This document shows, piece after piece, positions 12,874 through 25,233 of a stretch of 40,312 nt of DNA (positions are counted from its first letter, which is position 1; each line of letters begins with the position of its first letter). Location: positions 1 to 40,312 of the forward strand of contig JAUWZW010000002.1 in the NCBI GenBank assembly GCA_030615165.1. The letters run 5' to 3'. Below the pieces are notes generated by a model that was not told where the DNA came from, ran no database searches, and saw only the letters and a program-made list of their open reading frames with translations. The position numbers and the translations under genes were made by a program. This stretch comes from Candidatus Aenigmatarchaeota archaeon (GTDB taxonomy: Archaea > Aenigmatarchaeota > Aenigmatarchaeia > QMZP01).

Positions 12874-13629
12874 TCAATCCCTCCTGTTGAGCAACTCTTT
12901 CTCTGTAGCCAAAAGAGCCTCATGCGTTCCTACATCCCTGTATATGCCCCTGTGCACAACAGCATAGCACGGCAGACCTTGTTTGAGCATTAATATTATG
13001 GAATCTGTTATCTGGTATTCACCCTTTGCCCCCTTGGGTGTTTTTTCTATAAATCCGAATATCTCCGGCTCGAAAACATAAACCCCGTTTATACCCAGCC
13101 ATTCTCCATTAGTTTTGAGCCTTTCCAGCTCTTCATCTGTCTGCGGCTTTTCCATCATATCAAGAATTTTTCCGTTTTTGTCTATCTTAACTATGCCATA
13201 TCTTTTCGGGTCTGTTATAGCTGAAAGCCCCAGGGTACACTTAGAACCTGTTTTCTTATGTAATTCAACCAAATCCCTGACCAATTTATCCTTGGGTTCT
13301 ATTATCTCATCACCCAATGTAGCAACAAAGGTTTCGTTGTTTACCAGGGGTTTTGCTATATAGATGGCCTTTGCAACACCCAGCAATTCTGTCTGAAATC
13401 TGTAGGAGACATCAACACCTGTCCATTTACCGTCCCTAAGATAGTCAAGAATAGCCCCTTTGTTGTTACCTACTATGACTATTATGTTTTTTACGCCACC
13501 CGCCTTGAAAAGGTCTACAGCATGCTGTAAAAGCGGCTTGCCGCACACATGTACCATTTCCTTGGGTATGGAATATGTTAACGGTTCCAATCTTTCTCCC
13601 TTCCCAGCAGCTAGTATAACACCTTTCAT
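12874..13629 (-). CDS. Sugar-1-phosphate nucleotidyltransferase (UTP/dTTP-glucose-1-phosphate type)
   Basis: 'MKGVILAAGKGERLEPLTYSIPKEMVHVCGKPLLQHAVD', 'ATLGDEIIEP', 'YGIVKIDKNGKILDMMEKP'. Confidence 0.92.
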   Translation of the reverse strand: MKGVILAAGKGERLEPLTYSIPKEMVHVCGKPLLQHAVDLFKAGGVKNIIVIVGNNKGAILDYLRDGKWTGVDVSYRFQTELLGVAKAIYIAKPLVNNETFVATLGDEIIEPKDKLVRDLVELHKKTGSKCTLGLSAITDPKRYGIVKIDKNGKILDMMEKPQTDEELERLKTNGEWLGINGVYVFEPEIFGFIEKTPKGAKGEYQITDSIILMLKQGLPCYAVVHRGIYRDVGTHEALLATEKELLNRRD

Positions 13630-13671
13630 ATACCTCGCCTTCCTATCGGTGACGGGGATTGCCTTCGGCAA

Positions 13672-15829: not shown

Positions 15830-16567
15830 ATGAGAAAGGCGTTTTCCTTGATTTCAGGGGTTTTGTTTCTGGCAATCACCATAACAGCGGTTGTTGTTGT
15901 ATATCAAGCCGGGATGCCCATCGTCAAGAGGATGCAGGTATCTGCAGCAATAGAGCAGATGAAAACAACATTTGTAGAGCTGGACGAGCTGATAAGACAG
16001 ATAGCAGCTGAGGGGGCTGGTTCCAAGAGAGCGGTTCAGCTGAGGGTGGACCCGGGCAAGCTCATAGTTAATGAAATCCAGGACTCTATTTACTGGGAAC
16101 TGGAGACATATGCAATGATTATCTCACCGAGAACCAAACAGCAGTTTGGCAACATTGCTGTGGGTTCAAATCTGAATACAAGGGTATATGAGGCAAACTA
16201 TACAAGGGTATCACCGGAGATTAAATGTTATGTGATGGAGAATGAACATCTGAAGGTTTATGTGAGAAAGGTAGGTGTCAACACATCTCAAGACGGCTGG
16301 GAGAATTTCAACACAAGCTCACTTGTCATTGCAATCTACAACAAGGATATGAATGAATGGCTTGAGAATGAGGGGTTTCTGGAGATAACAGTTGATGATA
16401 ATACAAATTCAAAAACAGGAAATGGCTATACAATACCACTCGAGACAGGGTACAATCTGCCGTATGGAGCGGTAACAGCACATATGAACTCCAGCTATCT
16501 CGCATACAGCATAAACTTCACCCTTGGGTCAGGTGCTGACTTTTTGGATATTGAGGCAAGCACCTAA
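15830..16567 (+). CDS. Pilin-like / class III signal-peptide secreted protein (paralog of 28303-28986)
   Basis: Single N-terminal TM 'KAFSLISGVLFLAITITAVVVVYQAGMPIVKRMQ' then soluble domain. Confidence 0.65.
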   Translation: MRKAFSLISGVLFLAITITAVVVVYQAGMPIVKRMQVSAAIEQMKTTFVELDELIRQIAAEGAGSKRAVQLRVDPGKLIVNEIQDSIYWELETYAMIISPRTKQQFGNIAVGSNLNTRVYEANYTRVSPEIKCYVMENEHLKVYVRKVGVNTSQDGWENFNTSSLVIAIYNKDMNEWLENEGFLEITVDDNTNSKTGNGYTIPLETGYNLPYGAVTAHMNSSYLAYSINFTLGSGADFLDIEAST

Positions 16568-16568
16568 T

Positions 16569-16692
16569 CCCTTTCTTTCGGGAAAGAAAGGTCTAAGGTA
16601 CAAAGGTCAAACATAGTAACGGTTTGAACCGTTAACCGATGAACATACGAACAGATGAATGTTTGAGCCTTTGTATTACCCCAAAGAAAGGG
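16569..16692 (+). ncRNA. Structured element A (hairpin + long stem-loop, possible alternative closing stem); strand inferred
   Basis: Hairpin 16570-16591; stem ACAAAGG-TCAAACAT (16600-16614) / ATGTTTGA-g-CCTTTGT (16659-16674); inner TAACGGTT-tg-AACCGTTA (16617-16634); AAAGAAAGGG (16683-16692) complements CCCTTTCTTT (16569-16578). Confidence 0.55.
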
Positions 16693-16751
16693 AGATTGTA
16701 AAGCAATGGGTCAATATATTAACAGGGCTCATAGCTCAGCCCTGAGCCTTT

Positions 16752-16827
16752 CACAAAGGTTAAGCAAATAACAGTTCAAACTGTTAATTGATGAACAGAT
16801 GAACTTATGATCGCTTAAGCCTTTGTG
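16752..16827 (+). ncRNA. Structured element B, paralog of element A with compensatory stem changes; strand inferred
   Basis: CACAAAGG-TTAAGC (16752-16765) / GCTTAA-g-CCTTTGTG (16813-16827); inner TAACAGTT-ca-AACTGTTA (16769-16786); shared 'GATGAACA' loop sequence. Confidence 0.55.
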
Positions 16828-16856
16828 GCTTACCCAAAAAATATGAGGAAGATATT

Positions 16857-17336
16857 ATGAAAAGAATGAAGGCAATATCACCGCTGATTTCTGCAGTCAT
16901 GGTAATCCTAATTGCATTTGCTTTATCCGCTCTCATAGCTCCCTGGGCGTTTGAGATAGCAAGGCAGCAGACAAACCAGACAGGCGGCTATGCAGAGCAG
17001 CAGATGATATGCCAGAACACAGCATATGACTTTGATACAAACTACGGGACAAACGGCGTTAATTGGACCTCTACAGGAACAAACGATAATTTAACTGTAA
17101 AGATAGTGAATACGGGATATCAAAATCTCTACAATTTCTCATTTGAACTTGTGATAAATGACACAGTTATATTGCGTCCTGATGTAACAGATGCGACCCA
17201 GAAGACAAGTATAAATCCTCTGGAACCTAGTCAGAGTACTTTCCTCAATACAACAGCCAATATCAGCGGAACATTGAGTGAAGTCAAGATACTAAACATA
17301 GTTTGCCCGAGTGTTTATGCAAGGCAGGAATTGTAA
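16857..17336 (+). CDS. Archaeal type IV pilin-like protein
   Basis: 'MKRMKAISPLISAVMVILIAFALSALIAPWAFEIARQQ' class III signal/pilin N-terminus. Confidence 0.8.
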   Translation: MKRMKAISPLISAVMVILIAFALSALIAPWAFEIARQQTNQTGGYAEQQMICQNTAYDFDTNYGTNGVNWTSTGTNDNLTVKIVNTGYQNLYNFSFELVINDTVILRPDVTDATQKTSINPLEPSQSTFLNTTANISGTLSEVKILNIVCPSVYARQEL

Positions 17337-25012: not shown

Positions 25013-25233
25013 GGGCTCGTAGCTCAGTTGGTTAGAGCACCAACAAAATGGTATCTGGGTGTTCCCTGGATACTGCGGTGCATGTCTTATAATGGCTGTC
25101 CGCAACCAAGCCGTAGAAGCTGGCGGTCGAGGGTTCAAATCCCAACCCTTTCTTTCAAAAGGAAAGGTCTAGGCTTACCCCAAAGAAACACTTTACAAAA
25201 GAAACTGGGGAAATGAGAATCCCTCCGAGCCCA
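25013..25233 (+). tRNA. tRNA-Ile(UAU) with three introns (25043-25083, ~25092-25117, ~25140-25219)
   Basis: Removing the three segments gives GGGCTCGTAGCTCAGTTGGTTAGAGCACCAGTCTTATAAGCTGGCGGTCGAGGGTTCAAATCCCTCCGAGCCCA, 74 nt, all stems paired (one T31-G39 wobble), invariant T8, A14, G18G19, T33, TTC present. BHB-like foldings at the junctions. Confidence 0.85.

Follow-up and report, generated by a model that had tools for sequence, protein, structure and literature searches.

Our analysis suggests that the spacer at positions 16563-16850 of the window (that is, of the entire 40,312-nt stretch of DNA analysed here, which is contig C74 of the 958-kb, 82%-complete assembly G000 of an Aenigmatarchaeota archaeon) is a nest of mobile elements between two pilin-like genes, and we assign to this reading a probability of roughly 0.7. 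An element of 50-90 nt, here named M (16563-16711), would have inserted at the stop codon of the upstream gene (15830-16567, + strand); M is mobile but non-autonomous, is found in Aenigmatarchaeota and has a conserved fold when single-stranded. One copy of a palindromic repeat, here named P (copy A, 16599-16675, + strand), would then have inserted at the base of the stem of M, with a second copy (B) located 76 bp downstream of A and followed by an M-like remnant. The two flanking genes both encode a pilin-like N-terminus and exhibit weak matches below the Pfam cut-off, the upstream one to DUF7289 and the downstream one (16857-17336, + strand) to CARDB; the region 16560-16840 between them folds beyond chance (z = -6.45 when compared with dinucleotide shuffles). 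The hairpins A and B are ordinary repeats, and the interest of the locus lies in M, the element that is interrupted.

The nesting becomes apparent from the flanks of A, CCTAATCCCTTTCTTTC..GAAAGAAAGGTCTAAGG and TTACCCCAAAGAAAGGG, which match inserts of ~85 nt in the T-loops of tRNA genes (on contigs C15, C58 and C34, and at 25134-25222 of the window) as well as a copy of M on contig C62, where it is found at the 3′ end of a tRNA-splicing-endonuclease gene (L021, 1372-1444). The 5′ half of the M copy (16563-16598, + strand), which is homologous to these T-loop inserts and has counterparts after stop codons at C62, L077 and L074, comprises (i) the 5′ strand CCT of the stem P1 (16563-16565), overlapping with the stop codon (16565-16567), (ii) the pyrimidine arm CCCTTTCTTTC (16569-16579), which is followed by a loop, (iii) purine run 1 AAAGAAAGG (16583-16591), and (iv) the 3′ strand AGG of P1 (16596-16598). 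The 3′ half (16676-16711, + strand) then continues, in the order seen for CCCCAAAGAAACGATTTACAAAAGCAATCGGGG of the tRNA copies, with the linker TTACCCC (16676-16682), purine run 2 AAAGAAAGGG (16683-16692) and the tail GATTGTAAAGCAATGGG. Hence, the segments CCCTTTCTTT, AAAGAAAGG and CCCCAAAGAAA around A are parts of M that were split by P. In the P-less copy on C62, TCTAAGG is directly followed by CTTACCCC, whereas in the window P stands between TCTAAGG and TTACCCC, and it is this comparison which places the insertion of A at the base of the M stem, that is, at the junction of P1 and linker. An earlier note on this DNA had let the element begin immediately after the stop codon of the gene at 15830-16567; this holds, with homology starting at ~16563 and the stop TAA (16565-16567) lying inside M. 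Taken alone, the M copy in the spacer scores weakly (E 0.008) since it is split by P, and no target duplication is visible around 16563-16711. It follows the stop codon of a protein gene and lies outside any tRNA or other RNA gene, so that this copy is not a tRNA intron of the bulge-helix-bulge (BHB) type.

Further remnants appear to fill the spacer. Between A and B, a 15-nt fragment, GGGCTCATAGCTCAG (16725-16739, + strand), is identical in 14 of 15 positions to the 5′ end of the tRNA at 25013, and is followed, up to position 16748, by CCCTGAGCC, with which an acceptor-like stem could be closed. It is possible, albeit tentative, that 16725-16748 is the relic of a tRNA with an insert in the D-arm; such D-arm inserts are known in relatives (L175, L187). 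B is followed by GCTTACCCAAAAAATATGAGG, which resembles the end of the M copy at locus L099 of the same genome, and the segment 16828-16850 (+ strand; GCTTACCCAAAAAATATGAGGAA, to be compared with AAGGCTTACCCCAAAAATATGAAACC of L099) may tentatively be assigned to an M-like linker with a remnant of purine run 2.

The architecture which the earlier note had ascribed to A and B (16752-16827, + strand) is fully present. The two are paralogous (76% identity over 58 nt) and share an outer stem ACAAAGG/CCTTTGT (16600-16606 and 16668-16674 in A; 16753-16759 and 16820-16826 in B), a bulged G (16667 in A; 16819 in B), a second stem that differs in sequence with the pairing kept (TCAAACAT/ATGTTTGA in A versus TTAAGC/GCTTAA in B), an inner 8-bp hairpin (TAACGGTT/AACCGTTA in A; TAACAGTT/AACTGTTA in B) and the segment GATGAACA (at 16638 and 16790). 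Folding compared with dinucleotide shuffles yielded z-scores of -4.45 for A and -4.88 for B. The covariance-model search proposed in the note was carried out with a model built from seven copies, A and B included (E 3.6e-18 for A in its own genome and 9.2e-20 for B, both being training copies). Together with a DNA search, it identifies P as a dispersed palindrome of ~76 nt with about 14 copies at unrelated loci of the own genome, a count that rests on these searches; in 60 relatives P is nearly absent, with a single weak match (G019).

In the seven-copy alignment, 6 of the 14 pairs of the outer stem are changed on both sides (variants including ACAAAGG/CCTTTGT, AATGAGG/CCTCATT and ATTGAGG/CCTCAAT) with 99% of the cells paired, and the bulged G and the TTAAGC/GCTTAA core are retained across copies. 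Covariation of the inner hairpin, to which the note had also pointed, is present in weaker form: one compensatory pair out of seven in total, 93% of the cells paired, the changes being concentrated in the outer stem, and competition with a second hairpin in several copies. Sliding of the pairing partners, which served as a control, abolishes the covariation signal. Pairing is thus kept by compensatory change, as the note had held. In a dispersed repeat, however, compensation between the arms can reflect processes at the level of either RNA or DNA, and is in itself insufficient to demonstrate a role as RNA.

Conserved pairing with compensatory changes and a bulged G, the strong folding, and the site between two pilin-like genes on the same strand are all in favor of viewing A and B as regulatory RNA structures of the pilin genes (an attenuator, a terminator or a processed non-coding RNA), with A harboring a two-state switch. 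The hairpin is found, however, at about 14 unrelated loci, close to start or stop codons and in one case to the end of a tRNA, and when the region, the window and the loci with tRNA inserts were scanned against Rfam, only ordinary tRNA came up. Along with the nature of the presumed switch segments and the occurrence of M in tRNA genes (see below), this makes a regulatory role of A and B very improbable.

The copies of P reside in spacers, that is, 1-18 nt 3′ of stop codons (C34, C67, C8), just 5′ of start codons (C42, C18 before the gene for NrdR, and copy B in the window), or beside a tRNA (C34). We rate it slightly better than an even bet that P is a MITE or a REP-like palindrome served by a transposase in trans, whose arms co-vary through end recognition or through homogenisation by hairpin-templated repair. 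P is a short, dispersed, non-coding and imperfect palindrome, intergenic and limited to one lineage, it has terminal inverted repeats of ~12-14 nt, and its nesting in M is clean when compared with the P-less sequence of C62. On the other hand, none of the P copies is flanked by a target duplication or other direct repeats, and a search with the ends of P for an autonomous parent gave 20 matches versus 15 for the control, that is, no excess in this 82%-complete assembly. Moreover, the outer stem varies (ACAAAGG, AATGAGG, ATTGAGG, AATTCAG) and the inner TTAAGC is conserved, which is the reverse of what is usual for terminal repeats. Being nearly absent from relatives, located in spacers, and seen with neither direct repeats nor a parent, P is best seen as a lineage-specific palindromic repeat. 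At L002, L038, L039 and L042, P abuts the 5′ side of a long-loop subtype of M (TTCTTTACGGGAGC...GCTTCCACAAGAAA); the junction of CCTTTGTG with TTCTT is identical in three loci of the own genome and diverged in one relative. In addition, a conserved leader, GTNACNGAYNNNRAGGCGARRTATATG, was seen to end at or near the start codons of the gene for NrdR (C18), of a gene on C52 and of the nucleotidyltransferase gene at 12874-13671 of the window; its sites are 13627-13653 (- strand, the one exact match in the window), L030 at ~1592 and L003 at ~1589 (- strand).

The fold of M bears directly on the two mutually exclusive structures which the earlier note had proposed for A. The core of M consists, in this order, of P1, a 2x2 internal loop, P2 (formed by the pyrimidine arm and purine run 1), a loop, the linker and purine run 2. 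Pairing in P1 is kept despite changes in sequence (ACAAA/TTTGT, ACCAA/TTGGT, ATCCA/TGGAT, ATAAA/TTTAT, GCAAA/TTTGC, GTAAA/TTTAC, ACAGA/TCTGT), and these variants occur in many copies at the same offset and with the same 2x2 internal loop. Where the C is shifted along the pyrimidine arm, purine run 2 is shifted with it in the same direction (UUCUUU with AAGAAA, UUUUCUUU with AAAAGAAA, CUCUUUCUUUU with AGAAAGAAAA). Among copies with asymmetric arms, leaving out those picked by the scan pattern, run 2 is an exact mirror of run 1 in 36 and an exact direct repeat in none. Owing to this mirror relation, run 2 would be oriented parallel to the pyrimidine strand and antiparallel to run 1, and its covariation with the stem is that of a third strand, which is likewise kept in the copies of M outside tRNA genes. 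We infer from these sequence patterns that the mirror runs represent the signature of a triple strand and not of a switch, with run 2 probably lying back along P2 in a triple-stranded or pseudoknot-like fold. A classical pseudoknot based on loop-tail pairing was discarded as a general feature of M; such pairing is weak overall and clear only for the class in which the loop contains CC and the tail GG. Regular antiparallel pairing between a mirrored run 2 and the pyrimidine arm is possible only if the run is symmetric. Such symmetry is found in A, where the arm reads UUUCUUU, and explains why A looked like a switch: CCCTTTCTTT (16569-16578) can indeed pair with either 16583-16591 or 16683-16692, but the regulatory switch drawn from this finds no support, since the segments belong to an element separate from the hairpin and run 2 mirrors, rather than repeats, run 1.

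A second M copy in the window (25134-25222, + strand; E 5.7e-22, training copy) is located within the T-loop of a tRNA gene (25013-25233, + strand) that carries two inserts, one in the anticodon region and one in the T-loop, and that was missed by both ARAGORN and the Rfam tRNA model at the gathering score. Removal of M restores the T-stem and acceptor ends of this gene, of those on C15, C58 and C34, and of about 30 more in relatives. In the T-loop copies, the intron nucleotides that precede a 3-nt bulge next to the T-stem form a helix with nucleotides 54-57 of the exon (TTCA or TTCG); at 25134-25222, this helix joins TTCA of the exon (25134-25137) to TGAG of the intron (25214-25217). On the 3′ side, which was the side examined, the bulge at the splice site is mostly AA/T (the slash indicating the site) and adjoins the 4-bp exon-intron helix. 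The combinations TTCA-TGRA and TTCG-CGRA covary: nucleotide 57 is A opposite T in 23 of 25 cases and G opposite C in 12 of 16, with three additional G-T pairs. The T-loop copies of M thus keep, at the level of sequence, the helix and geometry of a BHB motif at position 59/60, and are likely to be spliced from the transcript; PF01974, the tRNA splicing endonuclease, is encoded in 145 of 158 genomes, the own one included. The type of this endonuclease was rejected as a determinant of M occurrence, as copy-rich genomes carry either a ~200-residue or a ~400-residue enzyme. A hairpin resembling GGAGAGAAACCTTAGGTTTCTTCTCC recurs in several genomes, either within tRNA inserts or in their vicinity (L151 at ~640-700, L075, L178).

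Within its own genome, the M copy of the spacer has as homologues the four T-loop inserts and the copy on C62, and a covariance model of the four inserts detects strong homologues in several relatives; the named relatives with shared elements are MAGs of Aenigmatarchaeota or ‘Nanoarchaeota’. A pattern scan retrieved the M core in at least 44 of 160 genomes of the phylum, with up to 18 copies per genome, versus three matches in all for the reversed pattern. Most intact copies are tRNA inserts, and the sites include T-loops, D-loops, anticodon loops and positions 3′ of tRNA ends. Many copies are therefore found where an attenuator would be senseless. Outside tRNA genes, M occurs flush 3′ of stop codons and directly beside start codons: among the 82 copies not located in T-loops, 14 begin no more than 15 nt beyond a stop codon, where randomly chosen positions of these loci would give 1.5%, and 12 are placed in antisense orientation shortly before a start codon, for which 4.3% would be expected. 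M is thus enriched at both kinds of site, although the copies are interrelated and these counts do not represent independent events. M-like cores are also found in tandem or nested within single tRNA inserts or spacers (L102, L093, L116). Neither Rfam riboswitch nor group I/II intron nor ribozyme models matched M above the gathering score; group I introns, as far as they have been reported for archaea, are located in rRNA (PMC6125680). Among viral contigs the M pattern gave 20 matches without a clear carrier; most of them stem from a single coding sequence that related contigs have in common, and a few are hairpins. Two tRNA genes on one such contig enclose a hairpin accompanied by a mirrored purine run (CACCTTTCTTTT..AAAGAAAGGTGTGCCAAAGAAAACC; L213, 5117-5152), which could be a relative of M, a terminator or a chance occurrence.

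Nine M copies are flanked by target duplications of 12-42 bp. At L108 (G008:C9, 480-720), one gene (MKYTIVAPVGDNIGALF...) has received two nested insertions of M within its first 42 bp, and their duplications of 14 bp and 42 bp each restore the start of the gene. Duplications of 33 bp (L105), 21 bp (L151) and 16 bp (L127) are found at tRNA 3′ ends, one of 24 bp (L111) at the start of a helicase-like gene, one of ~17 bp with one mismatch (L112) at the start of the S15 gene, and two others measure 21 bp (L177) and 12 bp (L119). Exact repeats of at least 14 bp flank 6 of 126 M copies versus none of 617 mismatched upstream-downstream pairs, for which the longest repeat is 12 bp; a 16-bp repeat at L103 turned out to be internal M sequence and was excluded from the count. 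The direct repeats around several copies lead us to infer that M is mobile and inserts into DNA with long duplications of variable length. M would then move through DNA insertion, and its fold may serve as a recognition feature for a mobility or processing protein. In tRNA genes, copies of M would be tolerated thanks to their excision from the transcript by the tRNA splicing endonuclease of the host; elsewhere, they would persist solely at the edges of genes or in places where the gene has been made whole again by a long duplication.

No mobility enzyme for M was found, and the occurrence of reverse transcriptases is unrelated to that of M. The latter is relevant for the possibility that M is a SINE-like retroelement spreading by target-primed reverse transcription, as might be suggested by its structured, RNA-like core and by the variable, long (12-42 bp) target duplications. 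Reverse transcriptases are encoded in 29 of 158 genomes, but are absent from G010, from the own genome G000 and from G008, which is 95% complete and contains the most M copies and the freshest duplications. Target-primed reverse transcription is hence unsupported as a general route for M, and we regard it as improbable. Somewhat less remote, yet still doubtful, is the view that the M copies outside tRNA genes are tRNA-intron sequences which host repair copied into DNA breaks without any dedicated machinery. Most intact copies are, after all, tRNA inserts, the duplications vary in length as they do after the repair of staggered breaks, and a survey reported direct repeats of 4-30 bp near intron borders for all intron classes (PMC11782384). 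The many copies in several genomes and the two nested insertions at a single gene start (L108) suggest instead an active process, and the third strand is kept in non-tRNA copies as well.

Several known systems share features with M. In Thermoproteales, near-identical introns are present in different tRNA genes at non-canonical positions including 59/60 (Fujishima et al. 2010, reviewed in PMC4090602); these transposed introns are spliced through a BHB motif, and the mechanism of their movement is unknown (PMC4090602). The T-loop copies of M, for which splicing is likewise expected, share with them position 59/60 and BHB geometry. M differs from them in that it belongs to another phylum, has a conserved core with mirror purine runs, and is also present at the edges of coding sequences outside tRNA genes and with target duplications of 12-42 bp; in the papers searched, no mention of features of this kind came to light. 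For Caldiarchaeum subterraneum, disruption of tRNA by a mobile element was proposed, with gain of introns and scattered tRNA fragments (PMC3293823). The tRNA-like fragment between A and B is reminiscent of the latter; the Caldiarchaeum element, however, is 1.8 kb long and has a predicted recombinase, whereas M is non-coding and shorter than 100 nt. Elements of the IS200/IS605 type are not known to duplicate their target upon insertion, and differ in this from M. Their omega-RNA, a small structured RNA with a pseudoknot tied to an archaeal mobile element (PMC12558985), resembles M insofar as M is small, structured and mobile, with a predicted pseudoknot-like fold.

In the open-access literature we came across neither a report of M nor one of introns of this kind from Aenigmatarchaeota. 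The tRNA copies of M may be regarded as mobile BHB introns with added features. It is tempting to speculate, although we consider this possible rather than probable, that M is the first described member of a new class of mobile element: coding-free, 50-90 nt long, triple-stranded, present phylum-wide, accompanied by target duplications of 12-42 bp and removed as a BHB intron from tRNA genes.

M bears on the question of how archaeal tRNA introns spread, since tRNA introns, gene-edge copies and target duplications here come together in a single element family, recognisable by its fold; intron gain thereby becomes testable through comparison of close genomes and RNA-seq. Furthermore, many tRNA genes of the phylum may escape standard tools, just as the one at 25013-25233 did. 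Finally, a regulatory-looking hairpin at the end of a gene is, in some cases, an insertion.
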